The position numbers were made by a program, and so were the translations under genes. From the NCBI GenBank assembly GCA_021904315.1, contig CM038911.1, positions 17,271,390 through 17,335,389 on the forward strand: 64,000 bases of DNA. Direction: 5' to 3'. Shown here in pieces: positions 1 to 33,418 of this stretch. This DNA comes from Sphagnum magellanicum (lineage: Eukaryota; Streptophyta; Sphagnopsida; Sphagnales; Sphagnaceae). The first letter of the stretch is position 1. Every line of letters starts with the position of its first letter. The notes below the pieces were generated by a model. The model saw nothing but the letters and a program-made list of their open reading frames with translations, was not told the DNA's origin and did no database searches.

Positions 1-1086
1 AGGGTTTGGAATGAAAGGATAAATATTGTCCTCTTACGTCTTGGTTTCTAGAAATGTCAACTTGACCGTATCATTTGTAAATTGAAACATCAATACACTT
101 GATGTTTTTTTTGCTTTTTATGTGGATGACTTATTTATTTTCAACAAGGAGATAAAAGAGATAGAGAGGGAATGAAAAACTTCTTGTTACAAGAATTTGA
201 AATGAGAAATTTAAGAGAATTCACATATTTCTTTGGAATCCAAGTAATGAGAGACCATAACAAAGGAACCATTAGCCTTGGTTAGCCTAAGTATATAAGA
301 GAAATCTTGAAATCCTTTGACATGGATAATTGCAATCCTATAATTACACCTCTAAAAGCCAATATCAACCTTTATAAGCCAATTACAACAAAGACACCAT
401 AAGTAATTGACGCAATGAAGGGGGTACCATATTATAGAAAACTTGTTGATAGCCTTATGTATGCCATGGTTGCCACTAAGCTAGATCATTCCAATGTAGT
501 GAACATCATTAGTTAGTTTATGTAAAATCCCTCATTAGAACATTGGGTGGCACTCAAAAGGGTTCTAATATATTTGCAAAGTGTTCAAGGTTTGTGGTTA
601 TAATATTTATGAGTGCTTAATGACAAAGTGATTTTGATAAGCTTTTTAGATTCAAATTGGGGAAATAACATTGAAACTAGAAGGCCCACTATAGGTTTCA
701 CATTCCTTCTAGCAAATGGAGTTGTGAGTTGGATGAGGAAAAGAAAGTTCATGGTGGCATGCTCATCAATGGAGGTAAAATATATGGTAGTTCTTTCTAT
801 TACCAAAGAAACAATCTATTTAAAGAGGCTACTGCATGAGTTAACCTTCACTCCTTGAGTCACCACAAAGATTTTGATAGAAAACCAAGGAAGCATTACA
901 CATATGAAGAACCCTATCCACCGCAAGAGTACAAAACATATTGATATCCAACACCATTATGTTAGGGAGATGGTGATTGCCAATGAGGTAGCTTTTGAGT
1001 ACTGCCTTATGTTAGACATGGTAGCTAATGCTTTAACCAAGTTAGTAACTAGTAATGAAGATCACAAGGGGTATGGATGGGAGTAG
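1..1086 (+). mobile_element. Ty1-copia retrotransposon remnant (RT end and RNase H)
   Basis: Conceptual translation gives the 3' part of a copia polyprotein. The reverse transcriptase YVDDL-type box is seen as VDDLFIF near 120-140. It is followed by a FEMRNLREFTYFFGIQ block near 200-240, a SLMYAM block near 450, and the RNase H region with SSMEVKYM (normally SxMEAEY) near 765-790. The C-terminal stretch STKHIDIQHHYVRE lies near 930-970. In-frame stops at several places (for example after TISLG near 283, and near 400, 513 and 843) and a frame change near 600 show it is dead. The 5' end lies outside the window. The last codons (to 1086) overlap the left arm of a perfect inverted repeat (1055-1126). 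Confidence 0.85.
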
Positions 1087-1126
1087 GCATAAGAACCCTC
1101 CCATCCATACCCCTTGTGATCTTCAT
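1055..1126. repeat. Perfect 28-bp inverted repeat with 16-bp loop
   Basis: The left arm (1055-1082) begins ATGAAGATCACAAGG. The right arm (1099-1126) is its exact reverse complement. The left arm encodes the end of the copia ORF, while the right arm belongs to the unit duplicated at 27.2 kb. The duplicate locus carries only the right arm (27170-27197). Confidence 0.9.
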
Positions 1127-1163
1127 AGGTTTGGTTCATGATAAATTTTGCCTCGTGCTTTAC

Positions 1164-1279
1164 TGTAGGGAAAGCCCATGGGTGAGGGACATTCCCAAAA
1201 TGTGGGGCTGAACTCGGCTATTGCCTTGTCCTAGGTCCCTTATTTTGAGAATGCCCCCACCCTAGGGCTTTACCCTACA
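1164..1279. repeat. Short foldback element (MITE-like), copy 1
   Basis: The ends form imperfect terminal inverted repeats of about 31 bp: TGTAGGGAAAGCCCATGGG on the left, and on the right the reverse complement TGTAGGGTAAAGCCCTAGGG. The whole unit is about 116 bp. The same unit is at 27235-27350, and a related one at 47670-47776. Confidence 0.6.
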
Positions 1280-1417
1280 CGAAATATCTTTGCGTCATTG
1301 ATGTTCTGGCACAACGAAATATTCTGCGTCATTGATGTTCTGGCACAACGAAATATCTCTGCGTCATTGATGTTCTGGCACAACGAAATATCTCTGCGTC
1401 ATTGATGTTCTGGCACA
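1279..1417. repeat. 35-bp tandem repeat, four units
   Basis: Four consecutive units of 35, 34, 35 and 35 bp start ACGAAATATC and end GTTCTGGCACA. The duplicate locus carries a single unit (27350-27384). Confidence 0.95.
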
Positions 1418-2150
1418 AATATGATAAGAGGGTGGAATTACTGTTTAGAATTTCATTTCCAAGCTAGATGACTCATATGCTAAGCTGTTACAGCTTCTGA
1501 TCGTCCTCACCTTCCACAGTGATGATCATCCTTCTCTCTGACTTACAGGTTCGCCAACGCTAAGACCGGCGTTTTCTTCGGTTTAGCCATTAAATTTGCT
1601 AAAAAACAAAGTCCTGAGGTCAAGGGAACTTTTTGGGAAATTTCTCAAAAAAACGCTACATTTAGAGGAAGAAAGTTACGAAATTGCCAAGCTTTTGGGA
1701 GGATTTGGGCACAGTTTCTCTATAAATTACCACAAAATTTTTTAGCATTCCCGAGTGGGACCATCAAGAAAAATTTCCCCTATGTCAAACATGCATGAAA
1801 TGGTTTGTTGACAATGGGAAAATACAATGATCCCCCTATTTCACAATGGGGAAATTAGAATAAACAAACAATGAAATAATATTGGCCCCACAATTCCCTT
1901 GGAGAGTTTTCCCTGTGACGTTTGTTAATTCAACAGCTTCAAGCTCTTAGAGGTTTCCACTCTTTGCCCTAGAGGGAACACGCCAAAGAAGTTTGTTGTG
2001 ATGTGTAGGAGTCTAGAAATATTTCGACCCCTTTAGGAGTGTTTTTGAGAGTTCTCAATTTTGTCTCTTTGATGGCACAGAGTACATTCAAGAAGAGCGC
2101 ACAGACGTCCTCGTAGCGATCAAACTAAGCCTTGGTTATAAGAAAGTAGT

Positions 2151-3536
2151 ATGGCCAATCCTTCAGAGATGATCGGTGGACCAGTCATAGGAGCACAGTA
2201 TTGTGTACCAAGTACATGTCAGTACAAGCTTTTCCAGACACGCAGAGGATCGGAGAATTGGAGCGTGGTTGATGCAGCAAACGGGACTGTGATTTTTACA
2301 CTGGTGAAACATAAGACGAATTCCAGCAGATGGAGGCCGAAGTACGAAACCCAATTGGTGGATGCGCAGGGAAATATTGTAGCTCGAATTCAGGACGAGG
2401 TAACATATTTACTACTGTGTTTACTGTAATGTTCTGTTTAGATCAAGGTATATAAGGGATCTGCCCGATGATTTATACTTCAAGTGTGATGATCATCTCT
2501 CCATGAGAGTGACGCAGTGATGACTAGATGTTCATGGAGTGTGAATGGGTATTTTGTCTCCTTTCTGGTGGAGAGTGACATTTGGAGCTGCAATGCATGG
2601 ATTGATTGTTTTGGCAGCGGAGCAGATGGAAAGTATTGGGTGGATCTGCAGATTCTAATGTCCTTTGTAGCGTGAAGATCTGTGGGGGGCTGTTATATTG
2701 GAAGACGGCTATCAAAGTTTTCCTTGCTTCCAACTTGTCTGAGAAACAGCCTGACTACATGGTGGAGTTGAGGAAGATTTGTGGGTCGGATTGTATCATT
2801 CTCCATGGAACACAACCCATGTCAGAGGTATGTGTCCGAAAAATCTTTGGACTGCTGATCAGATGGTTGATCTTGAATATATTAGAAATTACTCAACCAT
2901 CATGGAGAAGCTGCTATCGATGTATTATGCTTCTGATTAACTTGATTCATGACAAGATCTTATAGGCGGTGCAAGGGAGATTAAAGGTAGAAAGCAGAAT
3001 TCATTGCGTAACACTCACGTCATGGATGGTGCACGCTGTTTCTTTGTAATGATATGTTTGTGATAATATAGTGGCTGGGTGCATGACGCCCTGAGCAATA
3101 TTAGCCTCCTTTACAGCTTTTGACTCGACGTCAAGTTTGCCAGATCTAGAGATCTTACGCACACCCATTTGGAGCCTTAGTAGCTCAGAGTGTACTACTA
3201 CTTAGCTCATCGATCGATCATCCCCTGAAGTAATAATCCGATGAATTTGATGAGTTTAGTTACAAGATTTTGTGTGGGATCTTGATCTTCATTCAACATC
3301 ATCGCCCTTTGTGGGTCTGGATCCAGGTGGAGGTTAATGGCAGGTGGTTCGGGAGACCTGAGTACACAGTGACAGTGAATGCAGGTGCAGATTACGCCTT
3401 CGTGTTGCTTCTTGTCATGATCATGGAGAAGAGTGACGAGGAAAAAAAAAAGCGGGCAGCTAGGGCCAACGCCGCTGCCGCCAACGCCGCTGCCGCCAAC
3501 GCCGGTCCACCTGCTGGTCCACCTGCTGGTTGCTAA
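2151..3536 (+). CDS. LURP-one-related (LOR) protein, copy A
   Basis: Three-exon gene: 2151-2399, 2618-2827 and 3327-3536, all joined in phase 0, with GT-AG introns (GAG|gtaaca, ggcag|CGG, GAG|gtatgt, tccag|GTG). It encodes about 222 aa, the usual LOR size. The fold is the tubby-C-terminal-like barrel of the LOR family (PF04525). Strand signatures seen are QYCVPSTCQYKLF (residues about 16-28), NWSVVDAANGTVIFTLVKH, YETQLVDAQGNIVARI, then RWKVLGGSADSNVLCSVK and FLASNLSEKQPDYMVEL. The last exon holds GRPEYTVTVNAGADYAFVLL, matching the hydrophobic C-terminal helix of the family. After the conserved EKSDEEKKKR the protein ends in an Ala/Asn/Pro/Gly low-complexity tail of about 24 residues. LOR members include Arabidopsis LURP1, needed for defence against an oomycete; most others have no known role. 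The start is the first ATG in the conserved frame. The gene lies inside a 3.9-kb duplication shared with copy B. Confidence 0.88.
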
Positions 3537-5006
3537 ATTAGTTCAAGTTGTTCTAACTAGTGCGCAAAACTGAGCTTTTAAGTTTGGTCATTTGTAGACT
3601 TTGCTTGACATTTGAGTAGCTATGTACAATTTGGATCATCACATGTATGAAAGAAATAGTATATCTGGGGATTTTGAGTACAGCGCCATTGGATAGTTCA
3701 ATGGGATTTCAGTACCCATTAGTAGACTGGACATGACATTATTTTATTAAATAAGGGTATGAAATACTGAGACTCAGGATTAAATGCACCAGGCTTGAGA
3801 ACATTTATAGCTACAGTACACATAGCAGCAGCAGTGATTGGTTGAAAGCGTTCAGGAAAAGAAAGGACAGGCCAAACTTAGTTTCGCACCAAATTTGCTG
3901 CTAAACTGAGTTTCATGCCCTGTTGAAGCCCGGTGTACCTTTTTTTTTCCTGCGTTTTGAAATCTCGTCCCGTGTGTGACCAACCAGGAGGTTTCAGTGC
4001 CGTCTTTGCTTGACTTCACGAATAACTTTATTGCGTTGTCACTTCCTTCATTGAGCCTAGCTTTGAAAAGGTTGTTCGGAATTTTTTACTTCTTTCTTTG
4101 TTGTTGTTGCTTGCCCCTTTCTACAAGTTTGCATCATGGCTAACATGGGAGACAACACTTTTGAAGCCAAGAGGCTTCTGGGTTAATCAAATCATAATGT
4201 GTGAAAGTTCAAAGTAAATATTGTGTTGTTAAGAGAGGATTTCTAATTCAAGGTAAAGAATTTGTCCTTGAGAAAGGATTTCTGATTCAAAATAAAGATC
4301 TTGTTGCTAAGAGAAGATTTTTAATTTTGTGATGAGCAATCGTAATCAAATGAGGGAACGGTGACAAAGGATTCAACCAAAACCTTTTTTGAACATTTTG
4401 ATTTTTTCATAGAAAGAAAATTTTTAAAGAAATTTTTTGCAACATATTATCTTGAATAATTCAAAATAAACTGCGATATCTTATTTTGAAATATTAATCG
4501 ATGATTTTTCACATTTGTACATGATTGTGCATGTATATGGTTTAAAAGTTAAAATGCAATAAATGTCAAAATGGGTTTTTTAAATCAATTAAATTTTTTT
4601 TTGCATAATTATTTCCTGCACATGTGACTTGCACCTAATGGTAGAAACTTTGAACCTAATCCATACAAAAACTAACCAAATCATTTAATAAAATAATCAT
4701 GTCCCTTGTAAACCTTTGTTTCAAAATCTCAAAAGTTTGAAATTTTCATATGATTTATTTTGTCATGAAGTTGACCCAATGAACAAGTAATTGCATAAGG
4801 GAAGCATGGTTTTTTTGCACAAGTTTGAAATCAATTGCATCATTTCATGCATTCATTTGTATAAAACTCTAATGTGGACATTTGGCCATAAATTAGTCAA
4901 GAATTCAAAAAAAACTTTTATACAACATCCAATAATTATTTAAATTTATTTTTTTTCCCTCATACTTTAATAGTAGAAACACAATAGTACATCAAAGTTA
5001 CAACAT

Positions 5007-6366
5007 CAAGGTTTTCAATACTTTGGACTTGAAGTCTAACTATACCATCAATTGCCATTTAAAGGAGGGTGACAAGGTGAAGATGAAATTTTGGGGAATC
5101 AATATTAACAAGGATTGTTTGTACCAATGGAGATGTTTGCCATATTTGGTTTAAGATACGTTTCCAACGTCCAAGCATGATTGGGGTACCACATTTGAAC
5201 CCTAAACACTCACTCCAAGGATTCCCAAATTCACTTTTTTTTTCACTTTTCCCATGACATGTTTTACATTTGATTGGGTCCAAATTTTTTAAGGTGTACC
5301 AAAATCTTGTCACATTGTCGCTTTTCTTTTTTTGTCTTTTTACCTAGTCCTTTTTTATCATGTAAAGACACATTTATGGATGATTATGATGGAATTTAAA
5401 ATTGCAATGGTTTAAAATATAATCCTTTTGAAAAATTTGACAACTTTTGATCCATTATTTTTTTAATGGGGATCAAAATATGGGGTAAAAAAAGACTACA
5501 ACAAGGACTAGGCCCTTTTTGTCATGTGTGGTACACCTTATAGGATTTTCACCCCCACCCTTTTTTCTCATGTCAAATCAAATGATTTTGTTCCAAATTT
5601 TATATAGGCTTTTTAAATATATATTTTTTCACTTATGAAAATAATAAAGTTTATCCAATGTGGGCCATGTTCTATTAATGGCCCAAAATTCCCAAAAACT
5701 TGACTTTTTCAAACTTTTTACATTACAATGGTTCATGTCGCATTCATACATTTTATACAAATTAGCACATAAGGTGTTTGTGGTACAAATCTTCCAAGCC
5801 AAAAAAAAGTTGTTTAGACATTCTTTAAATGAATCCTTGAACTTTTTTTTCTCATGAGACAAACTCCTACATGGATTTTTTCCAAGGACTTAATAGGAAT
5901 CCTTAAATTTGTTCAAATTTGACATTATATGCATAAAATAATACCTTTGTAATGTGTCTATTTATGAATAAAATCAAAATTTCAATATGAATGTGTCATT
6001 AAGTTTCAACCACATGTTTAAATGAAAGGGTCCAATGAATATAAAATACGATAGTTTTTTGGGTACCCCAAAAGGTCATGGATCCACTGGTAGAAGGTTT
6101 TGGTTTTGGTTCGGCCAAATGTTATATTAATAACATCATTGTTTTTAGCTTGACCCCGAAAAAACACATGCAACATTTGCAAAAGGTGTTTGATTGATTT
6201 TAAAAACATAACATGAAGTTTCATCTTGGCAAATCCTAATTTTTCCACACTCAACTTTTTTCATCCACTCCCATTTTAAGGCAACCCATTTGGGGACGAT
6301 TGTTCTAATTACACATTGATTGAAATAGTTTAAGGTTGGGGGCTATGTTTATCCAACTTGATGATG
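5007..6366 (+). mobile_element. Broken Ty3-gypsy RT fragment with internal insertion
   Basis: The 5' part (5007-5155) translates to the gypsy RT motif FNTLDLKSNYHQLPFK, with two bases shifting the frame, and ends in LYQW plus a PFGL-like site. An unrelated insertion of about 900 bp follows, containing a MITE-like element (5277-5553). RT then resumes at about 6050 with VMDPLVEGFGF, AKCYINNIIVFSLTP (the YxDD box is decayed) and KHMQHLQKVFD. It breaks off at 6366, just inside the RNase H domain. The same arrangement is present at 36191-37559, so the insertion predates the duplication. Confidence 0.8.
5277..5553. repeat. MITE-like element with GGTGTACC ends, copy 1
   Basis: About 277 bp with imperfect 25-bp terminal inverted repeats. 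The left end has GGTCCAAATTTTTTAAGGTG; the reverse complement of the right end is GGTGAAAATCCTATAAGGTG. Both continue TACCA. Other copies are at 36462-36735 (same orientation) and 37859-38126 (inverted). It encodes no protein. Confidence 0.75.
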
Positions 6367-6727
6367 TTTTGTGTTATGCAGTTATGTGTACATTTCAGGT
6401 TCTGCCTTATCCCCAAGATTTAGATAATAAAAGTTGATCCTAAAGATGGATTATAGGAAGAGAGGAAAATTGTGTGTGATGAGTTATTGTGGGGAGGAAT
6501 TTTATGATTGTGATTCACAACTTAGGACCTGATGCTAGATCAAATGCCTCCAACTTGGCACCTTCTAGAAGAATCACCCCAATGGGTTCTGTAATTTCTA
6601 TCTACAACCACATTTCAATTGCAATCATCAACAACATATAATTGTGGATATGTTTAAAAAGAGATCATCAACACATATTGTACATAGGTGCTCACCATTC
6701 ACTAGATCAAACCTTGGAATCTTAGTT

Positions 6728-6834
6728 CTTACCAGTGAGCCCGTGTGCCATTGGCCTGGGCAAGTATATTTAAACCTCCTGGAAGGTCACCCATCCCAAT
6801 ACTATTCCCACTGAATTCAGCTTAATTACAGGGT
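6728..6834 (-). repeat. 5S rRNA-related sequence (SINE-like or 5S pseudogene)
   Basis: On the minus strand, the stretch TTAAGCTGAATTCAGTGGG followed by AATAGTATTGGGATGGGTGA and CC matches the internal promoter half of plant 5S rRNA. It preserves the order A-box (GTTAAGC), the AGTAGTACT-like element, then C-box (GGATGGGTGACC). The 5' half of 5S is not present and the 3' part diverges. This suits a 5S-derived SINE head, a Cassandra-type element or a truncated pseudogene rather than a working 5S gene. Confidence 0.55.
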
Positions 6835-6840
6835 TCTTAT

Positions 6841-8731
6841 GAATTTTTAACGTTTTTAATTTATTTTTGGGAAAAAAAAAACTCTAAATTCAATAACTAA
6901 ATTTGTTCCTTTGGTGTGAAAATTGTGAAACAACTAATGTGCAACCACCTTGTCGAGGGTGTTTTAACATTACCAATAGTGGAACAAAGAGGCCACCTTC
7001 TTGAAAGATTTTTGGCATTATTTTTGATACCAACATTTCCAACATGCCATAAACCCTTGGGAGGGTTATGGCATGGTCATATGAAACAAACAAACACTTA
7101 TTTTAAGTAATAGATTAAACTAGTTGTTTTGATGCGTTGAGATATCAAGCATCAAACTAATAGCAAGACTTTCTTGCAATTTGGATTCATGGTCATCTTG
7201 CAAATGGTTGTGTATAATACGTTCAATGTTTGTTGAGGCCATTAAATGTTTCGACTTATAAAGTCTACCAAAATATTACAAATTTATTATACCATGATGG
7301 CCTATTTGGCCAAACTTGGGATTTGAACCATATGTTTTGCAAATTTTGTGTTTTGGATCTTGTTGGTGAGCATGAAAAAATTATATTCATTACTACAATT
7401 TTATTTTAGCTCATACATTATATCTTGTTGGGTACATTCAACCTAATAGGATCCATTGGTGCTTCCTGAGTTGTTTATGACTAGTCTCGACAAGTTAATG
7501 TGACAACATGGGATTGGTCAAAATGTTGAAAACAATGCTTATATTTCTTTTTAACACTTTCATTGTGCTAAGACACATTGGTTAATTATGGGTTTTAGCA
7601 TGTTTTGAAAGATATTTTATATTTATTAAATTACTTTCAAATTTATCCAAATGTTAAATTAATATATAGAAAGGGTGTCATAAAAATCATTAAATGAAAA
7701 ATGTCATATTAGGATTATAATTTGTGATTACAAAATAAACACAACAAACATTTACAATTAAAATTGCATTAGTAACATGAGTTTAATTGCACACAACTTA
7801 TAGTTATAAATGTTGACATTATTGTGATGTTTTGCATAACTAAGGAATGAAGGATACAATCAATGGATACAATTTCATTCATTGACCAATTGTATATCAT
7901 TTGTCATTGCTTTCCATTATTTGCAATTAAATTGTAGGCCAATTACTAGTTGCCATGAACCAACATAACTAAAACTTCAAAAAGATTAAATTCAAAATAC
8001 AAGTATTATCTTGGTTGAACCTATTTTAAATGGAACATGGTTTTGCCATGTGACCCAATTGACTTAAGCCATGTGGCATGATAATTGGACTTTGAAAAGA
8101 ATGAATTAAAAAATAGATAACATAATTTACATTGTCCATTCGATTGTTTACATCAATTTGATCCAAAAACAATGATGTTGACTTTAATGCTTAATCCCAT
8201 ATTCAAGGATCTCTCTATTTTGAATAATTATATGGGACTAGAAAAAACCACAATTGCAGCAACAAAGTATAATTCTGAAACTCTAATTCCCCTTTTGTGT
8301 TTACATTACATTATTAAACATTAATAAATCACACTATTAAATCCATTATTACATAGTCCTCATCATGTATGAGCAAAAACATTATTACAAAATGAGCTTA
8401 TCAAAAAGTTCATCCTTTTGTAGAACACCCATCAAATTTTGACCTTTAAGAATAGCCATTGGCGATGTTTGTTAGAATATTAACTAGAGATCAAATGATC
8501 ATGGAACAAAAAAAGGTGTTGACAATCACGTTCTCTCTCTCTTTCGTTTTTCATCACTGCCCTACTGAAACCTAATTTACTCTGCCACCACGATATTTGC
8601 CCACATTGTACAGGCAGGAGAACAAGTATAACCTCGTATAACCTTATACATGATGGAACTATGCATATGACATAAGTGTAATGCACATTTTTTTCACCTT
8701 TTATTCCATAAGTTGTGTAGGAAATTAAAGT
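6841..8731. other. AT-rich intergenic sequence without recognised gene
   Basis: Short ORFs here (60-110 codons) show no family motif and occur on both strands, as expected by chance in AT-rich DNA. Nothing else was recognised. Confidence 0.5.
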
Positions 8732-8987
8732 ATGGCGGTGGCCAGTGATCATGTAGTATCTGAGAAGAATTTCAAGGGTGAACAAGTCATAGGGGGACAA
8801 TATTGCCTACCCAATACAGTCTAGTACACACTTGTGCAGACCAAGAGAAGATGTTGCACAGAGGATTGGAACGTGATTGATGCCAACATTGGTCAAAACC
8901 AACACCAATTTGCATGGATGGATCCTCAAATTTGAAACCCAATTGGTGGATGCTCAAGGAAATATCATAGCTCGCTTCAAGCACAAG
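8732..8987 (+). pseudogene. LOR exon-1 relic, copy D
   Basis: An ATG at 8732 opens a frame leading to GEQVIGGQYCLPNTV, matching the LOR start (GPVIGAQYCVPSTCQ). A TAG then stands where copies A-C have CAG/CAA for Gln. Further on, EDWNVIDAN, a deletion of about 17 nt, and then KFETQLVDAQGNIIARFKHK (in another frame) match exon 1. It ends at a splice-donor-like AAG|gtacta at the homologous position. No exon 2 or 3 was seen downstream. The nonsense codon and deletion make it a pseudogene, more diverged from A and B than C is. Confidence 0.75.
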
Positions 8988-10964
8988 GTACTAATATAAT
9001 TCCCTTTTATAATTAAGGGAAGGAGTTTAGGAGTTTAGGGTCCCTTAATTACTTTCAAGTATATTCTTTATCTTCTTTGAGCATGGAGTTTGTGAGGCTT
9101 GTTTTTACACAACTTATTGGTATTTGTTTTGCCTCATTGACAAAACATTAGCAATTTTGTTGCATGGATATATTGCAAATATTTGACATTTTATTGAGAT
9201 TTCAAAAACCCAATTTTTATTATGATTGATTAACACAATTCATTGTCAGCTTTGCAACACAAATATGTCAATTTATGAACAAAAATTGTGATCATTTTTT
9301 AACAAAACATTATTCAATTATGTCCCAATTTTGCAATGATAGTTTAAATTTTTTAATTGATATTCTTCTTAACTTCAACAATATGTTTGCAATTTTATTA
9401 TGCATGTATTGTGAGTACTTGTCCAATAAATTACCAGTTAAATTAACTTAATTATTTTGCAATACATCTACAAATCTATTTGCAACAATTTAAAAAGGAT
9501 CTTTTACGATTGTTTATATATGTGCAGTGTTATTTATATATAACACTGCACTAAACCTGAGAAATGGGTTATGGACAAAGAATATTAGAACTCCGAAGTA
9601 TTGCCCAGTTCATTGTCTTCAAGGGCAGACATTGAGCTTCAGATGATATCCATCAAATCCAGTGGCACCAGAAGATGAAGTTGAAGAATGGGTTGAGGAA
9701 TGTTGCTGATGCTTGGCACCTGATTGAAAAGGAAGGCCTGCTTGCTGTAAAGTATGGATATGAGGATAGGCATTGCGCTACATGATACCCCTCTCATTGA
9801 TGGGTTCTTCCGTTTGAGAATCATTTCCCTTGACTGGATAGAGTGGTACCCCAATCAGTGCATCTCCATAGTACTTAACAAGACATCCCACCACTACAAT
9901 TTGAAGGTTTAAGAACAAATTTTTCATAGATTTAGAGGGTGGCTCCCCATGCCATTTTGTTAGAAATCCATTTATAAAAAATATAAATTACATTTTTAAT
10001 ATTTTTTTAAAAAGTATTGTGCTACTGTCCATTGTTAAATGGCCTATACTAATGCATCTATTATACAAATTGAAACACATTTACACCACATTTTTTAAAG
10101 ATTTTGATAGTTCAGACAATACCATTCAATAGGAAAACCCATTGGAAATTTGTATCTACATTATGAAAAATATGTGTAAATTATGTTTTAAGACCTGATG
10201 TATATATTATGGAAGAATTGTGTAAATGTTGTTGCAAAAAATATTATTCCATCCAACATAGTACTATTGGTAATCCACATATATATCATGAAAGAGATGT
10301 CAAAACATCATTTTAAACACGTTGTGCAATTAATCATTGGTAATTAGCACACAGTGATAAAAATTAACACGGATTTTCAACGATTTTTTTCTAATGTTTT
10401 AATAGCACGTACTAATGCATTTGTGATAAAACCAAAATACATTTCTAACAATTTTTTTTCATTTTTAATAGCTCATACCAATAGCCTTTGTTCAATAAGA
10501 CTAACATTTATATTTCCAACGGATTTGTCCTAAAATTTTCATAGTAAATATTAATGTATATGTGATGTGATTTCAACATACATTTTCAACCCATTTTTTC
10601 TTAATTTTCTACTGGCACATACAATTGCATTTGTGATAAAATCAACATATATATTTCAAATGGATTTTCAGAAATCTAATGCATTGATCAGTAATCTAGA
10701 TGAAAGACATGAAAATCAATTTTTAAATTTTTTCCTAATAAGTTCTCTTTCTTACAAAGATCTAAACACAACTTAGGGTGAATCCCTGAAGAAAAAAGCC
10801 AAGCCAAACCCTTAGTGGGCTCTTGTGTAGGTGGAGGCTTAGACTCCAGACTCCAGGGATGGATTCAATAAGCTCCATTTGTAAAATTTGCAGTTGTGGA
10901 AAGCATATAAAAACAATTGATGAATGAAAACTTACAGAAAACTCTAAATCTTTGAAAACAGTAC
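8988..10964. other. AT-rich region, no gene recognised
   Basis: It contains many runs of T and A and several short degenerate repeats around 10380-10620. A less AT-rich patch (9570-9870) has short open frames on both strands but no recognisable domain. Confidence 0.4.
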
Positions 10965-11340
10965 CTCCAATAGTCTCCATACATTGAGAAGTAATAAGGC
11001 ATCCTTCCATGTTCAAACTAAAGAGTTTTTTCAACCCTACAAGGGCACAGATGATTCATCAAACCTGCCTTTGGTGTTCCGAGTGCTATATGAAATTTTC
11101 ATAAAATAATCAAAGGTGGCAACATCATGATCTAATAGAGCTTTCCAAGATAGTAAAGACAAATCAAGAACATGACAATGAACTCCTTCCAACAATTGGG
11201 GCCTTGAAAAGGCACAAATGAATTTTGCCATCCCTTCAAAGGAGAGTATACCTTTCAAAGATGCAATACCCACATCATTCACTTTGTAAAATCCCACCCC
11301 AAGAATCAATAGATTTACATGAAAAGATATAACTTACTCA
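10965..11340 (-). CDS. Two leucine-rich-repeat exons (RNI/F-box-LRR type), partial gene
   Basis: On the minus strand, one exon ending at 11252 (donor AAAG|gtatac) reads HVNLLILGVGFYKVNDVGIASLK. After an intron of about 215 nt the next exon, 11036-10965, reads GLKKLFSLNMEGCLITSQC and continues METIG. That exon is exactly 72 nt (one 24-residue LRR), has phase-1 boundaries on both sides, and has good sites (ttgtag|GGTTG and GGAG|gtactg). The repeat pattern (LxxLxxLNxEGCxIT, VxDxGIxxLKG) is that of plant ribonuclease-inhibitor-like LRR proteins related to F-box/LRR proteins and amino-terminal-like receptors without kinase. The 5' boundary of the first exon (about 11330-11340) is uncertain. No other LRR exons were found nearby, so this is either part of a gene with large introns or a captured fragment. 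Confidence 0.6.
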
Positions 11341-13440
11341 AAAGGGACACAACAAAATATCAAATTAAGAGGATATTATCAGCAGTTTACATCCAATGAG
11401 AGTAATGACTTTTGTAGGCAATTTAATTGGAATCAGCAAATGAAAAATCATATTGTTAAACCAGGAGTTTATATCTAAAGCACTACACTAGCTGCAACAA
11501 CCATTCAAAGGTTGTCATGCTAGGATACTTGTAACATCTGTAGTGTTTTGTGAAAATACAATCCTAGTGGTGGGGCACACATAGTACTTTTTGGGTGATC
11601 TGGTTTTAACCTTTGACACACAAAACAACACATAAATCATTCACATTTTCAAATAACACCCTCATCATATTTTTAGAAAAATATAATTGGTAACCCAATC
11701 AAAGAAACCTATCAAATATCAAATTTCAAAGTTCATTTATTAAAACTAGTATCACACACTACCATTCATAAAAATTGCTAAAACTAATATCTAGATAGTG
11801 GCCTAATATAAAAATTTGGTGTAGAACTACATCTAACATACTAGGTTATGAAAGAGGATAAAATATTGGGTTAGGGAGTATCTTAGTTACCAACCTTAAA
11901 AGCCACATAATTTTCAAATGAGTTGACAAGGCATAATGGAAGATGATGTTTGCTTTTTCAATTCAATTGCTCCACCAAAGTGACAAAAAGTTATAGCTAA
12001 TTCCCAAAAAATACATCACATAAACAAGGCCGAAGTTGGCAGAAGGGTATATTCAAACTCATCTGACAACTATTTGCGATAACATTTGCAAATAAACAGA
12101 ACTCTTCAAACATGATTGTTCAAGAATAAAAAGACAATGGAGTTGAGTAGCCTTTTTCCCTTTCATGTGGCTTGGTCATACTTAGCATAGAGTCCATATA
12201 CAAAACACATATAATAGTTAAATTTAGGAACATGAATAACTTCATTGTATCAAAAGTGTGCCAAAGGTACATGGAACATACATGGGAATTTTAGCTACCC
12301 AAGCTGAATGCTGAGAAGTTTGCTAGGCATGGATGCAATTCTTTTAACTCCCCCCTCTCAATTGTTTATATGTTTTCCAAGTCTCTTGCTTTTGCATTGT
12401 GGAGATTTCAAATTTCCACTCTAATGTTGTACATTAATATGATGAAAGGCTTCAATTAGGTCCATTTTCGTTACCCTCAGTTTATTGACTTTTGATCTAG
12501 GGCAAAAAGGCCTTGCAATACTTGACATTCTAACCTTTCAATACCAGGTTCATAAATTGGCTGAAAAATTCATCCTTCTTAGCTTTGTTGCAGTTAAGGT
12601 GAAATCAAAGATCCTGACTATAACCTTGAAAAGTTTAAAACATAGGGACAAAAGCCTAGTGATGTCTGCAACATCATCTTCCATCTGGACTGAAATGGCT
12701 CATCACTCATGCCACCAAAATACACATTTGCAGATAAGAATTACAAAGGATAAGTATGTAGTTGCATGCCCCATCCCTATGCAATATTAATCATAATTTC
12801 AATCATCAATAAACAAGTAATAGAAATAATCTAGTCCCACACCACATGCAAACCAAAAAGTAGTTTAATCAGGCATAGATATTGGTGGCATATCTTAGTG
12901 CGAAGGATAGAAATTTTTTTTGCTTTTCTCACATTGCAAAATAGATAGGCAAGTTGAATATTATAATCCTTAATAAATTCCTAAAAACTTTTTATGACTT
13001 TGATTTCGTCTTGCTCTCATTTTTTGCATAATAACACATGTTGAATTGGAAAACAATCTACAAACATTGCAATGTCCAATATAAATTATGACAAAAAATG
13101 GAGCTTTTATCAACTACTAAAGTTGGGGTGAATCATCACCAATTTTGAAACCATGCCATGGATGTGTTGCAATTGACCAATGTGAGGATTTCTCGCACAC
13201 TTCCACCACTAAAATATGCACTCACAAAAAACCCGGTTAGAAGTGGAACTACTATGTAGTTGAAGTCTAACGAGTTAGGTGGTTCGAGGTAAGTAATGAA
13301 ATTTACTAAAAATCTAATGCGTTGTGTCCAAATCTCATGATTTTATTTTTATTTTATTTTATTTTATTTATGTCTTTGACCAAAAGTTAAGCTCGAAACT
13401 AAAAACCACTTGTTTAGATTGAGGGGAAAAAAACAACTCA
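11341..13440. other. Intergenic or intronic sequence, nothing recognised
   Basis: AT-rich with only short open frames. If the LRR exons belong to an intact gene, upstream exons should lie here, but none with an LRR pattern was seen by eye. Confidence 0.4.
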
Positions 13441-13442
13441 AC

Positions 13443-14000
13443 CTCCTCTACTTTCACAAATGTAACTCCTTCACAGCAAAATCGATGACGTTGAATTTTT
13501 GGGAGAAGGTTCTACACATTTCAATCTAAAACTGATCTAATTTTGAGACAAATCCAACAGTGGATTTGAGAGAAACAATTAATTAAACCAAAAGTCTAGA
13601 GGCTTCCCCATGGAAATCATTCCATGAAACCCACTTCAACACCCTCTACTTTCACAAATGTAACTCCTTCACAGCAAAACCGATGACGCTGAATTTTTGG
13701 GAGGAGCTTCTACACCTTTTGAACTAACACTGATCTAATTTTGAAGCAAATCCAATGGTGGATTTGAGAGAAACAATTAATTAAACCAAAGTCCAGAGGC
13801 TTCCCCATGGAAATCATTCCATGAAACCCACTTCAACACCCTCTACTTTCAACAACTGTAACTCCCTCACAGCAAAACCGATGACGCTGAATTTTTGGGA
13901 GGAGCTTTTACACCTTCTGAACTAACATTGATTTAATTTTGAGACAAATCCAACGGTGGATTTGAGAGAAAAAAATAATTAAACCAAAGTCCAGAGGTTT
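13443..14000. repeat. Tandem repeat of about 198 bp, three units
   Basis: Units start near 13446, 13644 and 13841 (periods 198 and 197) with CTCTACTTTCA. Each contains CGATGACG(T/C)TGAATTTTTGG, AAATCCAA(C/T)(A/G)GTGGATTTG and TTAATTAAACCAAAG-like sequence. The third unit is truncated at about 14,000. It may be the internal repeat of an LTR, because the following sequence up to 14,830 has a TATA-like ataaaaagg and no coding signal. Confidence 0.85.
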
Positions 14001-14907
14001 CACTACAATTACTTGCTACACACAACTCCATTCCATACTTCATTTTTTCATAACCTTTCCATGAACACCTCCACACACAAGAACTAACAACCTTTCTCAC
14101 ACTTCATTCTCCTCTTCCTTCTCATTTTTTCACATACACACAATGTTTTTTTTTCTTGGCAAGCCTCCATGACCTTCCTTGAGCTTGTTCCCCTTGTCCA
14201 ATGAAAACTTTAAAATCCTTTTGCACCAATCGATGGCCTCCTCATCCTTCAAGGGCCAATGATAATTTGAGAATGAATGGCCATCCAATTGAAATTAGGA
14301 TGAGAATCCTTGGGCCCAATGAAACACAAGAGATATTCCATCCTCCAATCAAAGAGGATGACAATCCTCATGACTAATGGGATTGAAGGATCTAACCTCC
14401 CCCTTATCTTGGATATCTTGATGAGGTCTCTTGAGCTTGATCCTTTTTCGTCCGTTGACCCTCGCATCTTACTTCTTCATCCTAATTACTTCAAGTAACT
14501 AACTACTAGGATAAATTATCGGTAGTAACAAGGAAAAGTCCTTGAATTCTTATTTGACTAATTCAATGGTTGAAGTCACATTTCCGTGTAACATTCACTC
14601 CTTGATATTTCCTACCTATTTACTTTACTATGCACTAATTAACTATGTAGTACATAGTAAATTGGAATTACAATTTGCATCACAAAAAAAAAAACTTTCA
14701 CATACTTCTAGATCCACCGTTGAATTTAGGGTTTGATGAATCCTTTAGATCTAGGGTGTTCGAATTTTGATGAGGTTCTGCCATCGTTCCCACACCTTAC
14801 GCCTACCCTAATTTGTTAAATAAAAAGGCCTCGACCCCTTTTGAACGCAAGTACCACCTTGTTGTACTACCTTTTTGGTTTTTTTGTTGATGCAGGCGCA
14901 ACTAGTC

Positions 14908-15321
14908 ATGGCGGACGATGACGCTATGCCTTCAAATCCTCCAGTCGCACCCGTACAACAAGAAGAACTTGAAGAAGCACTGCTCAACTTGAATGTTTCT
15001 CAACGGCCGCGCGAAGAAGAACCGCCCAGGAGAGTGGTGCGCACTCGAGTCGCTCGTTCGGTATGGGATCGTCGATTGTCTCCTAACCCGCGTGCTCTAG
15101 CAATTTATTTAGAGTTTATTCTTGCTCGTGGAACCGTGCCAGAAACGTTTGAAGAGTGCCAGTGCGAAGATGATGATGTCCGTCTCCATTGTCGAACGTG
15201 GGTTCCCGGTGATGGCCATTATCGTTGGCTACGAAGCCCAATCAACCCACTTCCCCTGAAGCATCGAGCTGAGTACCTCGCTCGCACCATTTGTTGCAGC
15301 CTAAATTTTTTACAACTGTGA
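14908..15321 (+). CDS. GC-rich ORF of 137 aa, function unknown
   Basis: Begins MADDDAMPSNPPVAPVQQEE and is rich in Glu, Arg and Pro for its first 60 residues. It ends with a Trp- and Cys-containing part (EECQCEDDDVRLHCRTWVPG, then HYRWLRSPINPL). GC content is clearly higher than in the flanks. The sequence just upstream, tttttgttgatgcag, is a strong 3' splice site, so this may be an internal or last exon (open from 14875) rather than a whole gene. No family was recognised. Alternatives are the N-terminus of a retroelement gag, since LTR-like repeats lie upstream, or a captured host exon. The start at 14908 is the first ATG after the splice-like site. Confidence 0.45.
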   Translation: MADDDAMPSNPPVAPVQQEELEEALLNLNVSQRPREEEPPRRVVRTRVARSVWDRRLSPNPRALAIYLEFILARGTVPETFEECQCEDDDVRLHCRTWVPGDGHYRWLRSPINPLPLKHRAEYLARTICCSLNFLQL

Positions 15322-17648
15322 TCTATCCTTTAAATCAATTATTCAGTTGTAATTCACTTGAGGCTACTTAGGCGGAAATGTTTAATACTTAAGTTTGAAT
15401 TGATTCTATTTAAAAGTCTGATAGAAGTGAAATGAAATAAAGATGTATTAGGACTACATCCTAAAAATCTTACAAGTACATCATTAGTGCTTGAAGATTC
15501 TTCTACAGACTAACTTAACCTTGTCATGGCGAAATGCTATTGTTACCTATGGGCTTGTATTTCCTACATATCAATAAATCACATCTAATTCTACATCCCC
15601 TTTCCCTTCTCTTCAACATAAAAGGGATAATGTACTCTAAAAGGTTTACTAGGTGCTTAACTGATTAAGTGTTACATCAACTGAAATAAAGAAGTACAAT
15701 ATGCCTGGAAATATCACAAAGGCTGATTCAACTATTAATAATCACTACTTGGAGGCTTATAAACATTCAAATCATTATACCTAAAGAAAATTACGGAACT
15801 AAGGCTTAACTAATTGTTGAGCTATAATCCATGGCTCACAACCAATAATCCATTCTTGCAAGGATCACTAGTAATTTCAAGATCATTTTACATTGATTTA
15901 GTTTGTCAAACCTTACTTAACATGTCCAACCTACTTTTACTATCCCACCAATGGCAATTTGAAATCTGTTTAACCATGGGAATATAACAATCAAAAGAAA
16001 GCAACACCAACAAAAACTACATCAACCATGGCATCTCAATTGATGTGCAAATCTGTGTAAGAACTTATTTAAAAAAATAGTGGTTTTTTAGTTTTCTCTA
16101 ATCAATTAGAAATAATATAACCATATAACTAGTACTAATAAGTATGATTTCAAAAAAAAAAACAATGCTCCAACCAAGTCTATGAGCACAACTCGTTGAA
16201 GTACTCATATGATGTAGCAAATGAATCAACACTAGCAATGGATGCCAATGAATCCAAAGAATTCAATGCCACATTAGATGCCTTGCCCATGTTAGCAAAG
16301 AACATTTTGATGTCGATTTCCTTAACCTGCTTTAATTCCACATGTGATGACATTTTTCTGTATGTTGATTTCTATCACAATTCAACTAGATGAAAATATA
16401 GTTTTGGAAACCTAAAACCTCAAATTTTCAAGAAATGCCAAAATGAATGTTTTTTTGTTTTAAGGAGTTCAAATCAAATCTTATGTACATATTGTTTTGT
16501 AAAGTTGTGTGTGCCCCCATTGCCAAGGTGATTTTTTAACTAGTGTGATGTTCATGTAAGCTTTAATTACTTGCGATGTTAATCAAAATCTGCACTTTGA
16601 GATTGTTCCTCTAAAAAAAATACCTTCCAACTTGTAGAAGAATAGTTAAATGGTTTCTTTGTTACACATTAACAATCAAAACAAGATAGAATGAGCAAAA
16701 ATCACAAATCAATGTTTTAATATAAGCCTAAACCAACAATTAAAACATGTTCAATTAAATTGAACAAAATTCAACCATAATTATTTTCACCCAACCCTAA
16801 TTTAATTGCCTATCATTTGGTTGTTTTGCACCTTCATTAGCCATGTTGTTGAGTTTGGAAAAAAATGATGTGTCATCACAAATAACCAGAAAAAAGTTGT
16901 GGCACACTGTGTGAAAAAAATTCCCATTATGAATTATAGTGTAACATTAAGTTGTAGGAAGAAATAGACACTAAAAAAGATCTTGTCCATTCCAACACTT
17001 AGTTTGCAACTACAATGTGACTATTGTCCAAACCGATTGATTTCGCGACTGTTATGTTATTCCTACATCTCACTATAGTCGCAAGTCTTTTTAATCACAT
17101 ATGTGACTATAAGAATATTGAGTCGAAGTTGTAGTCGTAAATGTGACTTTAATTAAAACTATAATAATTTTAGTTGAAAATGTGGATGAAAATTGAACAT
17201 ATGTCATCCAATTTTGATAACATCCATTAAAGGATGATAATTTAGTTGTTTCTTCAACTATATGATTTCTTTTGCAACTGCAATAATATATTTTGCCACA
17301 CAAGCAAAAAAAACATTGATGTGCATGCATTTTATAAATTGTTAATATGTTTCAATGGAAATATTATTTTTAAAATTTATCTACTTATACATGGGTTTTC
17401 TTTTCTATTATCCATGGGTCTTGGATATATTATTATCTACATGCCTATATTATCTACATTATCTACATATGTGGAATATCTTTTGAATCCACACATAATA
17501 TCCATGGATAAAAACTTTACATGGGCCATTAAGTTCAAGTCTTATAGGTGTTCCAATGTATTTCAAATGTGACCACCATCATGTACATGGCCTTGGATAA
17601 ACATGTCCCATTGCCACTGTTCACTTTTTAGATAATTAGCTACATATG
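15322..17648. other. AT-rich sequence, no gene recognised
   Basis: Contains scattered short ORFs only. Around 17020-17150 repeated GTCGCAA/GTCGTAA and GTGACT words occur, of the kind found near transposon ends, but no clear inverted repeat was found. Confidence 0.4.
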
Positions 17649-20600
17649 CACTACTACAAAAAAATAAAAAACCTTCAAGTGTAACAAGGTCATGGCTTAA
17701 TAATCTATGTGTTAAAAAGGTGGATCATTTGCCAAAAAAAATAAACAAAATGTACAATTTAGGAACAAAGTCTAATAGGTAGTTAAATACTCCAATTTAC
17801 CATAATGTTTAAAACTAGACACCGTAGATTAAAGATCCACCAAATCAAAAACTCCACATCTTCAAGTAAAACATCTCATTGCAATTTGAAATGAATTGTG
17901 CAAATGTCATTGCAATTTAAAATCAAGATCATGTGTAATCATCTGTTTTTAATTTGGCTTGCAAGGGTTGAGTAGTTAGGACAATTTCTTCTCTATTCAA
18001 TTTTATTACACCTATTAATGCCCTACCACTATCTAAATCTGGAAATTTTAGTAGAGTTTTAAGCCCAGACACAACACCTCGTGTGTCAATGCAATCATCA
18101 TAAGTGTCCACAACAACTTGATGGCTTTTGGGTTCCCTCCCAACCACAACTTTTCCCCATGGTGTCTTTGGTTCATTCCAAAAAAATGTTTGCTGAACTT
18201 GTGCAAGAAAAACAAAAGGTTCATTAAACTCATGTGCAACATGTGATGAAAATTTGCTAGTAAAAACCTAGCATCACCTCGCTTGTAGGTGGGGTTGCCT
18301 TTATTGTTAGTCCCATTTTTCACCCAATTACAATGAAACAAAACTATTGGTGAAGCCATTGGACCATAATCCAACTGCAAAATCTCTTTCAACGTCCCAA
18401 CATATTGGATATGACCCAACATAACATCTTCACTCCCTTGTGACTATTATAAAATAGATGCAACACCATAATCATATGTAACCAACAAATTATTTTATTC
18501 ATCATCAATTTTGAAGTGGTTCCCGTATGTATTCACTTTTTTGTAACTCAATGTAGTGAAACTTGGGGGAACTGAAAGCAACAAAAGATCATCATCAACA
18601 AATAAGGTCCCATCAACTTGATGGGTTTGAATGCTTTCTCTCACCCACTTTGCCATCTAATCAATTTCTTGCAGATGTGGTGGGAATATGATAGGCTAGC
18701 CACTTGTAATAGGGTTTGATAGCCAATCACGTTGGAATTCAACTCTTGCATCTTCAATGCGCTCCTTTTCATCCTTATATTTCCTATAACCGCTAGAAGA
18801 TAGAATGTTAAAAAAGACCTATATCTAACAACTGAATCTTAACCTACTGCCCATGAAGGTAACAACTTGCAAGTTGCACTAAATGTAAGAGCATGATATG
18901 GTAGAGAATTAGAATTAGGGTTTCAAAAAGGATAGAAAATTAACTACCTAATTTAGCTCATATGAGAATATTAGACCTAAAGTCATCAATGAATAAGAAC
19001 CATGTGGGTTTAAAAGTGCCATTAGCTAGATGGACATCCATAGATGACAAAATGTGATCAGTCCTATAAGTAATTAATACACAATCCTGCATGTTAATAT
19101 TTCACATGGTAATAAAACAATTTGGGGTCATAACTAAAATAAAAAATGAATTAGAGACATGTAGGTTTAAAAATACTAACAACTAACTGTACATAAATTA
19201 CGAATTGTGAATAGTCCTTGAAGTAACTAATACATAATCCCTAGCATGCTATTAATGCAACTTGGGGTTCAGGTCTCAATAAGTAAATAACATTGCAAAG
19301 GTTTCTGATGAATGTGTCTATTCATGTTTTGTGGCAATACTAATGCAATTTTCATATCTCACGGAAAAAAGATAAAATGATAAGGTCTTAGTATAAAGTT
19401 AGTGGGTGGAAAAAATGCAAGTGGGAAATGATAGGAATATGGAGGTGTGCAAACCTAAGGGTTTATGGATCATAGACATGATGTGTTATGTTCCAACATT
19501 TCTATGATCTATAATCAACTTATTTATCAAATGCTATGATACTTTTAGGGTTTATTCTTGACGTAAAAATAGATTTGTTAATAATCAAATATGTTAATAA
19601 GCATCCTAAATTTAAGGTTTACTTTTGACCTAAAACAGACTTGCTAATAATCAAATTATATAACGTCTTAAACATTAGACCTAAATACATATCCATGAAA
19701 CATAGTTAATAATGTTTTGGAAATTAGGAGTTGGATGTAAAACAAAAGCCATGAGAAGGCTTAATGGCTAAAGGTTATATACCAAAAGAAACATTGGGCT
19801 TTGTGACTGAATATTTGCATGAATTTGAAAATGTAACCAGAAGAGTTTGGGATATAAAGGAATAAGAAGGAGTATCTAGAAAGATTTTGGAAGGTGCTTT
19901 TACAATAGTTATGTTCAACCCTATTATGTGCTAACAAATATCGAGGTTATGGGTCCATGGATACAATAAGCTCCTTTCAAGCCCTCTTGTATTAAATTGT
20001 TAGTGGTTATTTATTTTTAAGTGCATTGTACAAACCCTAAAATATGGCAGATTTTGAACAATCACTTGATTTTTTTGGAAATTTTGAGGCATACTAAATG
20101 TGTTATCTACTTATTGAAATAATAGACCCAAAGTGCATTATTAGCATGTGGGATTGTGTATTAGTTGGTTATAGGATTGTTCACAGGTCATGCCATGGAA
20201 CAGACGTAACCCTTTAAGACCTTCATTAGCCATTCCATTAGATACATCCAACGGTTGTGAACTAGCTCGCAAACATCCAATTCATCCGCCACATGCAATA
20301 ATAAATGAGTCATTACATCAAAAAAGGTTGGAGGAAATTCTTTCTCTAATAGGGATAATGTATTTGCCACATCTTTTCAAAGATTTCCAATATCAACTAG
20401 GTTCCAAACCTTCACAGGAATTTGTTGAAAAACACGACTAAGCCTCATAATGGCCATTTGTGGTTCCACCGCCATGAGCCTTCGCACACACAAAGGTAAT
20501 AGTTGTTGCATCAACATGTGATAGTCATGTGATTTCATTGAGCCCAATTTCCTATCTGCCACGTGTTTAGCCAATGAAACCCATAATTTGTGGGAAGTTT

Positions 20601-25860: not shown

Positions 25861-25925
25861 TTTTTGTTGGTGTGTGTGTGTGTGGAAAAGCACAACCACA
25901 GATCCAACCAACATGCTCTTGGCAG

Positions 25926-26274
25926 CAGTGTTGGGCAGTTTTGTGAAGTTTTAAAGAATCGTCAGTTTGGTTCTTTTATATTTCAGAATCAAAGAATTGC
26001 CAGTTCCAGTTCTTTGAAAAATATTCAGAATCAAAGAATTGTCCATTCCAGTTGTTTCAAAAAACCTCAAAGAATGGATGGCCTTCATGAAAGAACCGGC
26101 AAAGAACTGATGATTCTTTGGCCAGTTCTTTGACTGTTTAAACAATTTGAGAACCACCATTATACACCAAAACCATTTATTTGAAAATTTTGAGAACTGG
26201 CAGGTAAGTGGATATATACATGGGTTGATAACCGATGGGCATCTGTCCCTCATCCTTAGAACTGCCCAACACTG
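25926..26274. mobile_element. hAT-like non-autonomous element (349 bp)
   Basis: The ends are perfect 15-bp inverted repeats, CAGTGTTGGGCAGTT at 25926 and AACTGCCCAACACTG ending at 26274. Flanking octamers cTTGGCAg and gTTGGCAc share six central bases, fitting a decayed 8-bp target duplication. The CAGTG start and 8-bp duplication are typical of hAT. The interior has repeated AAAGAATTG, AGTTCTTTG and TTGGCCAGTTCTTTGAC words and no transposase. Related interior sequence recurs at about 32,570-32,730. Confidence 0.75.
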
Positions 26275-26492
26275 GTTGGCACCCCCTGCTGGTTTAAAGT
26301 GTGGCAAGTAGGTGATGTGCAGAGCCAATATATATAAACTGCTTTGTTGATCTTTGCAAATTAAGTTCAAATTCAGAGTTGCTTGATGTGCCCCGGAAAT
26401 TTACAGTTCCCAGAGTTACATACTTTATTCTGAATTAATGAACGTCGGTTCAATACCCTTCATTATAATTTAGCTTGATGCGCAAGCTCTCG

Positions 26493-26815
26493 CCCATTCC
26501 ACACCAGAATGGATCTGTGTCATACGCGATTCTGACCAAGAGACTAGAATTCTGAAAACGCGGGTGCACCGGGACTTTAGTTGAAATCGCTGCCTAGCTC
26601 ACAAGGAAACTGTGTACTAAAGAGCCCATTCCACAGCAGAATGGATCTGTGTCGTAGGTGATTCTGACCGACAGATTAGAATTATGAACTGACCTTAGTT
26701 GATGAAATCGCTTCCTGGCCCAAACGCAAAGTGCGTACGAAAAAGCGGATTACAAAGTTGAATAAATCGCTGCCTGGTCCACAAGCAGATGCGTACAAAA
26801 GAGCAGATTACAAGT
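26493..26815. repeat. Degenerate tandem repeat, about 132-bp unit
   Basis: Two units start CCCATTCCACA at 26493 and 26625, each with CAGAATGGATCTGTGTC and a GATTCTGACC block. A partial unit begins near 26,760 with AAATCGCTGCCTGG. Located between the hAT-like element and the LOR copy B duplication. Confidence 0.75.
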
Positions 26816-27150
26816 CTGTCGGGAGGAAACTACGGACGTACGTAGGAGCCAATTACAAGTTTCGCGTAGGTGAGTAAACGTCGTGGACGCGGGAAACGTG
26901 GTGCGCACGCGGCGATGGCTTATGTTGGGTTTTGTTGTATGAGTAAGCGCCGTGTTTCTCACGTTCTTTTTGACTAAAGAGTTTTAGAATACCGTTAAGC
27001 ACGCCGAGAAAATTTGTGGTGTATGTGAAGCTCACCTTATATCCATGAATTTTCCCTCCTGAGGAATTGGGAGGGATATTTTGCCTGCCCCTCAAGGGTG
27101 GGATGGAAATTATGCTTACTTATATAGTGTAAGAACCCTCCCACTATTAA

Positions 27151-31992: not shown

Positions 31993-32075
31993 GAGTCTAA
32001 TATTTCGACCCCATAAGTTTGACGGTTCTTAGGAGTAGTTCTCGAAAGTGTTGTCTGTTTTATGACACTAGTGTG
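31993..32075 (+). promoter_or_regulatory. Detached LOR upstream-region fragment
   Basis: GGAGTCTAATATTTCGACCCC and the following sequence to GACAC are alignable to 2008-2075 upstream of LOR copy A and to the equivalent place in copy B. There the block lies 80-140 bp before the ATG. Here it is followed by about 1.5 kb of repeats before LOR copy C, so it has been cut off from the gene. It is called regulatory only by homology to a LOR 5' region. Confidence 0.5.
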
Positions 32076-32176
32076 AACCCCGTGCATAATGCACAGGTGT
32101 GTTATTTCAACAATGTTTGGTTCATGTTTTTGGTTTTTAAAAAAAACTTTTCTTTTCAAACAAAACAACTGTTGGT

Positions 32177-33409: not shown

Positions 33410-33418
33410 TATAAATAG
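33410..33418 (+). promoter_or_regulatory. TATA box of LOR copy C
   Basis: TATAAATAG within ATTATATAAATAGAC, about 190 bp before the first in-frame ATG at 33603. It is a good plant TATA match, in a GC-mixed stretch without nearer alternatives. Confidence 0.5.

Follow-up and report, generated by a model that had tools for sequence, protein, structure and literature searches.

Probable loss of two internal pieces from one copy of a tandemly duplicated LOR locus in Sphagnum magellanicum

The window analysed here is a stretch of 64,000 nucleotides of chromosome C5 of Sphagnum magellanicum (C5:17271390-17335389), in which copies of a gene resembling the LURP-one-related (LOR) family, designated A, B and C, lie among fragments of retroelements. 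A segment of about 40 kb is duplicated in tandem, head to tail; copy A lies in one unit and the locus containing B and C in the next. Most probably copy A forms the right-hand portion of unit 1, a unit that later lost two internal pieces. The losses are placed in A, and are not gains in B/C, because B and a further copy, D, share sequence past the breaks of A and because D branches outside A and B. Coordinates marked w, below 1 or above 64000, lie on the same chromosome outside the window, and the features are collected in Table 1.

Arrangement of the tandem array

Copy A matches the B/C locus by self-blastn of the window in four pieces: 1080-1314 with 27151-27385 (97.0%), 1383-3475 with 27350-29447 (97.5%), 3486-5003 with 29428-30954 (95.6%) and 5007-6366 with 36191-37558 (92.8%). 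The E-values of at most 2e-110 exclude chance. The initial annotation had paired 1080-5006 with 27151-30957 and, directly adjoining, 5007-6366 with 36191-37559. Both pairings are reproduced, although the first only largely: block 1 stops at 5003/30954, and 5004-5006 reads CAT in A and TAT in B. The second ends at 37558 in B. The separation of the two parts in B/C by about 5.2 kb containing LOR-C was also correctly recognised (5,236 bp, 30955-36190), and the short shared words quoted at the 5006/5007 joint are present in the letters. A 35-bp tandem repeat at 1279-1418 has four copies in A, one in B and about two in D.

With the further segments designated R, S1, P, Q and X (primes mark unit 2), the order of unit 1 is R - LOR-Z - S1 - P - Q - LOR-A - gypsy and that of unit 2 is R' - S1' - P' - X - LOR-B - LOR-C - gypsy. 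These are head-to-tail copies of one colinear unit, as in a tandem segmental duplication. The end of unit 1 meets the start of unit 2 where gypsy-A ends at 6366 and R' starts at 6373, while the gypsy element reads on in B; this duplication joint is at the same time the right edge of the copy A finding. Unit 2 has no LOR-Z between R' and S1', and an LOR-Z fragment (8712-9001) lies after S1'. It also has no Q, and P' passes into X at a nearly blunt junction (25474/25475). A third stretch, w 94004-100000 (C5:17365393-17371389), contains the LOR-Z 3' end, S1, a P that lacks its start, and the sequence following P; its match to unit 1 beyond P reaches w -16557. Since units 1 and 3 share one sequence behind P, continuation beyond P would seem to be the older arrangement, and the P'-X junction may be derived.

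The 11.8 kb or so between S1' and P' (8478-20240) holds, besides the LOR-Z fragment, a 198-bp tandem repeat (13438-14001). Within it, 13635-15841 is 78% like w -6367 to -4177.

Copy D and the direction of loss

Copy D was found by a search of the 439-Mb genome. It is located on C5 in inverted orientation, about 1.05 Mb away, and both parts are present in the uncollapsed order copia - X - LOR - LOR-C - gypsy. Copy D matches w -14652 to 1041 in pieces, the last of which is the copia stretch w -582 to 1041 (89.9%). After 2.4 kb more it matches 25461-27385 (B-D identity 92.8%), block 1 up to 31428, and then 33741-37416, which corresponds to LOR-C without its 5' end and the gypsy fragment. The match with the left side of A is discontinuous, w -14152 to -10975 and w -9087 to -583 being present in A and missing from D. 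RVT_2 matches in the copia fragment lie at w -692 to -543 (E=3.5e-7; 30.5 bits, cut-off 31.6) and at 130-282 (E=0.0068).

At the right joint of A, copies B and D continue together past the LOR tail and also enter the gypsy fragment together from the left, and A alone breaks. At the left joint X runs into block 1 in both B and D, and the copia of D continues where that of A stops. Beyond the joints of A, B and D run on together with a few differences. X is retained in B and D, and so is the middle interval, in D in part. Relative to the outgroup copy D, the loss of A on the left comes to about 4 kb, 1.7 kb of it X. On the right it comes to 3.0 kb by the sequence of D or 5.2 kb by that of B.

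The tail of block 1 carries a dispersed repeat, with 23 tail matches outside the A, B and D loci among the matches listed. Eighteen copies drawn from these were compared; all 18 continue past the break of A, and 15 end at a position corresponding to B 31045-31052. A tree of the repeat with 10 of the 18 copies as outgroup gave the topology ((A,B),D), with A+B+D at 100/100. The evidence supports loss of the middle by A and not its gain by B/C.

Collapse of A was one of two possibilities named in the initial annotation, and it is borne out by copy D. The other was a gain of the middle by B/C after duplication; with A as the old compact form, B/C would have gained X, the middle and LOR-C, which is very improbable. 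The raw identity does differ between the two blocks, as two separate events would give. However, D lies outside A and B and holds X, LOR-C and the edges of B; the joints of A interrupt sequences that continue elsewhere (the dispersed repeat, the copia and the gypsy element); and the palindrome at the left joint is an added structure, not found at the edge in B or D.

Two other candidates were rejected. Block 1 as a jumped transposon had no terminal repeats or target-site duplication fitting its edges by eye, and D keeps the left side of A natively. Helitrons end in the motif TC...CTRR; no Helitron ends were seen by eye at the block edges. A natural end of the repeat 4392-5003 at 5003 was rejected as well, as it runs to about 31048 in B and on elsewhere.

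Sequences at the joints

At the left joint, 1055-1083 is a perfect inverted copy of 1098-1126 (29/29 nucleotides, loop of 14 nucleotides). Only the second arm is present in B and D, with differences in D. The palindrome, like the duplication joint at 6366/6373, is absent from the initial annotation. In a search for hairpins with a perfect arm of at least 16 and a loop of at most 60, this palindrome is the longest of three in 94 kb, and none was found in the 65.5 kb around D. The second-longest hairpin, w -11766 to -11673 (arm 26, loop 42), lies in a stretch that D lacks. The sequence of B at the block edge starts with GGAG, complementary to CTCC. The letters of the left joint would be explained if a 3' end folded back on these 4 nucleotides and copied 29 nucleotides.

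The letters of the right joint are TTACAA-CAT-CAAGG, with CAT as a 3-nucleotide filler. The word ACATCAA recurs 14 bp upstream, at most a hint of copying. Filler taken from the vicinity, as in end-joining, is seen in the 29-nucleotide inverted copy on the left, while on the right the source of the 3 nucleotides is only suggestive. In D the deletion opposite 31429-33740 (C5:16219725-16219760) contains a filler of about 40 nucleotides, an inverted copy of about 33455-33500 inside the lost interval, with matches of 2-3 nucleotides at its edges. Inverted local copies therefore occur at two of the six joints read (A left, A right, D deletion, P'-X, R'-S1' and gypsy-R'). It is conceivable, though improbable, that fold-back copying is the preferred mode of break repair in this cluster. 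If true, scars compared between paralogues would allow snap-back repair in a plant germ line to be dated far back, and the perfect palindrome that has survived might in turn act as a fragile site.

Arrays of similar tandem units are easily misassembled, and the A locus might be an assembly artefact, a collapsed or mis-joined tandem repeat. This is very unlikely. Misjoins usually sit in long identical stretches, whereas the joints here lie between unrelated sequences and bear distinct scars, and A carries substitutions of its own (34 in block 1 and 30 in gypsy in the three-way count).

The following history would account for these features. The ancestral order may have been R - LOR-Z - S1 - P - Q/copia - X - LOR - LOR-C - gypsy, of which D shows only the part from Q to gypsy. 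A segment of about 40 kb was duplicated head-to-tail, placing A in unit 1 and B/C in unit 2, with D as an older inverted copy. After the duplication unit 1 lost, whichever came first, about 4 kb between copia and LOR-A and 3.0-5.2 kb with LOR-C between LOR-A and gypsy. Each loss may have been a double-strand break sealed by end-joining, possibly by a polymerase-theta-type pathway. On the left, the broken end on the LOR side would have folded back on GGAG/CTCC, copied 29 nucleotides of itself and been joined to copia; on the right, the ends would have been sealed with the 3-nucleotide filler. The likeness of A and B over about 3.9-5.0 kb could stem from a later exchange.

End-joining or template switching had been put forward for the right joint, and the former appears likely. 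Replication-based template switching (fork stalling or break-induced replication) in one complex event, in place of separate end-joined breaks, is the less probable course by a good measure, but it deserves consideration. Inverted local copies at the left joint of A and at the deletion of D, and the short or missing matches at the joints, would agree with it. On the other hand, the cited sections of PMC2686159 and PMC10923293 present short fillers of local origin at deletion joints as plant end-joining scars. Nothing in the present data firmly separates template switching from end-joining.

Divergence of the two blocks

The initial annotation had proposed comparing the divergence of the two blocks and had named a clear difference as evidence against a single event with a deletion. 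The raw A-B identities do clearly differ, at about 98% in block 1 and about 93% in gypsy, yet the comparison is judged invalid because most of the excess consists of transitions in gypsy and because of one patch of block 1 in which A and B are unusually alike. In the substitution counts, the comparisons relative to D and the patch scan, columns within 4 of a gap are left out. Block 1 shows 1.17% A-B transitions, against 4.70% for gypsy (p=1.9e-12). Transversions amount to 1.11% and 1.46% (p=0.30, a test of limited power; p=0.097 after removal of CG and CHG sites). Changes of A and B polarised with D comprise 30 C>T/G>A and 15 T>C/A>G in gypsy, and 16 and 24, respectively, in block 1. The bias in gypsy is such as methylated retroelement sequence would give.

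As a measure of relative age that cancels the local rate, the sites where A or B alone differs were set against those where D alone differs. The counts are 45:42 for 1080-3430, 23:70 for 3600-5003 and 60:47 for gypsy. The left part of block 1, which was pre-set, is similar to gypsy (p=0.57), and the right part differs from it (p=7.6e-6). In a scan with segments of at least 8 sites, leaving out the low-complexity and badly aligned variable sites at 3430-3600, A and B differ at 15/82 variable sites inside 3891-4987 and at 113/205 outside (0/500 permutations). Such a bounded patch of about 1.1 kb, with excess A-B similarity against the outgroup D, is likely the result of gene conversion between A and B; faster change in D alone is possible instead. 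Measured against D, gypsy and the remainder of block 1 seem to be of equal age. The argument that unequal identities refute a single event was dropped after the transition, D-relative and patch analyses. More generally, the raw identity of adjacent blocks cannot decide between one event and two, and it is unreliable here because transition rates and probable gene conversion vary along the locus.

The frames of gypsy-B match RVT_1 at 37233-37382 (E=0.048, below cut-off) and RT_RNaseH_2 at 37516-37716 (E=5.9e-10). Copies A, B and D align through a 0.9-kb insertion in the reverse-transcriptase region, which is absent in all 6 other gypsy copies fetched, of 12 others among the matches listed. Since this nested insertion is common to A, B and D and missing from those 6, their gypsy fragments most likely descend from one insertion, carried along with the duplicated segment. 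Independent insertions of an abundant element at A and B/C, in an order alike by coincidence, are hardly credible. The element is indeed repeated genome-wide, and the gypsy divergence exceeds that of block 1; but the three copies share the nested insertion and lie in the same orientation on the same side, and the relative age agrees with that of block 1 outside the patch.

Several points weigh against the proposed history. All joints were read from one assembly. The third stretch supports only P and the following sequence, as the Q shared with D starts at w -14652 and is not reached. Copy D has no R, S1 or P within the 65.5 kb fetched, so that the full unit is not seen in the outgroup. Kilobases of the Q of A are missing from D, and kilobases of the Q of D from A. 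The A+B branch of the repeat tree (99/97) derives largely from the possibly gene-converted patch. D has GGAA where B has GGAG, and the fold-back match of 4 nucleotides therefore depends on the letters of B. The transition excess of gypsy stays when CG and CHG sites are removed (0.73% in block 1, 4.11% in gypsy). Block 1 as a whole differs from gypsy in relative age (72:128 and 60:47, p=0.001), and the agreement outside the patch (53/98 and 60/107, p=0.78) was obtained after the most deviant segment, itself identified in a scan of these data, had been taken out. In the last 174 bp before the joint, partly in the patch, A and B differ by 7.0%, which speaks against a uniform patch. Between the units P shows more transversions than block 1 (1.94% and 1.11%, p=0.0024), P not being more diverged than gypsy in this respect (p=0.30). 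Finally, other gypsy copies match only in short pieces, so that no rooted gypsy tree was obtained.

LOR genes

Exon 2 of LOR-A (translated 2606-2890) matches the solved LOR protein At5g01750 (1zxu) with E=0.0061. When six LOR pieces were scanned separately against Pfam, exon 3 of A (3237-3533) gave LOR PF04525 at 14.1 bits (cut-off 24.5) and the other five gave no LOR match. The genome search with PF04525 yielded 17 exon matches, none of them on C5. The 10 matches of a DNA search of the genome with 2100-3560 lie without exception on C5 and comprise A, B, C, D, the LOR-C of D, three LOR-Z pieces, and fragments near 8777 and w 94090. The gene is LOR-like by the match of exon 2 to At5g01750, which is weak but consistent, and by the sub-threshold match of exon 3.

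The exons are open in LOR-A, LOR-B and the D copy (within 2151-3533 in A). LOR-C, which is 81% identical to LOR-A and LOR-B, carries frame-shifting indels. The pS/pN values, counted with the first 105 nucleotides only of exon 3, are 0.017/0.018 for A-B, 0.042/0.050 for A-D and 0.029/0.053 for B-D. Changes between A, B and D do not favour synonymous sites, and protein-level constraint is not visible among them.

Comparison with known systems

Scars of polymerase-theta-mediated end-joining are the subject of a study (PMC5068794) reportedly made in C. elegans. Snap-back copying is described for polymerase theta in the cited sections of PMC5068794, where a supplement legend gives it as a minor part of deletion-insertions. 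The scars described there and, for Arabidopsis, in the cited part of PMC10923293 are similar to those of copy A in having short matches and flank-derived fillers, also in reverse complement. In Arabidopsis the breaks were induced, whereas the scar here is old. The maize P1-wr cluster with the p2/p1 chimeric gene, as presented in the cited part of PMC2686159, is alike in being a tandem gene array in which a deletion has brought distant sequences together, with filler derived from the neighbourhood and with exchanges between repeats. It differs in that the left filler here is a perfect snap-back palindrome, that two losses are found in one unit, and that the gene family is another one. With the LOR family, as treated in the cited parts of PMC10264818 and PMC8624885, the likeness lies in the weak but consistent At5g01750 match, whereas the copies here are below the Pfam cut-off in pieces and give no indication of constraint at the protein level.

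Tandem duplication, deletion with filler DNA and gene conversion are processes already known, and the present example is clear but ordinary. It demonstrates how an outgroup paralogue turns a confusing repeat pattern into a readable history, and its clear snap-back scar is a usable example for plant break-repair studies.

Other features of the window

Table 1. Features of the copy A and B/C loci, in window coordinates.
Feature	Position	Strand	Remarks
copia-type pol fragment, decayed	1-1052	+	starts upstream of window; right side truncated, right edge by eye
Snap-back arm	1055-1083	+	inverted copy of 1098-1126, fused to truncated copia; 29/29 complementary
Native palindrome arm	1098-1126	+	identical letters in B
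Block 1 with LOR-A	1080-5003	+	copy of 27151-30954
LOR-A exon 1, predicted gene model	2151-2399	+	
LOR-A exon 2, predicted gene model	2621-2827	+	left edge accurate within one codon
LOR-A exon 3, predicted gene model	3345-3533	+	sub-cut-off LOR PF04525 match
Patch, A/B unusually alike relative to D	3891-4987	+	likely gene conversion
Dispersed repeat	4392-5003	+	A copy truncated at 5003; B copy extends to ~31048
3-nt filler CAT at deletion joint	5004-5006	+	A compared with B and D, both sides
gypsy-A pol fragment	5007-6366	+	truncated on both sides
~0.9-kb insertion nested in gypsy reverse transcriptase	5157-6067, edges approximate	+	common to A, B, D
Tandem-duplication joint gypsy-A / R'	6367-6372	+	6 nt unaccounted for
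R', start of unit 2	6373-6715	+	copy of w -33596 to -33251, 94.2%
S1'	6714-8477	+	copy of w -28942 to -27514 (95.2%) and w -24982 to -24645 (96.8%)
LOR-Z fragment, unit 2	8712-9001	+	91% to pieces of w -30474 to -30156
P'	20241-25474	+	copy of w -23184 to -17945, 90.8%
X	25475-27150	+	in B and D, absent in A; near-blunt junction with P'
Block 1 with LOR-B	27151-30954	+	self-blastn
Middle interval lost in A	30955-36190	+	in B; in D without 31429-33740
LOR-C, frameshifted	33668-34679	+	D counterpart without 5' end
gypsy-B portion matching A	36191-37558	+	element continues on both sides

When 9 more frames of the window were scanned against Pfam, the one match, DUF4216, was sub-threshold. The open frame at 55762-56877, of 371 amino acids and starting with ATG, has none at E<=0.01. 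A C-rich 52-bp tandem repeat of about 7 copies lies at 32187-32548, in the portion of the middle interval missing from D.

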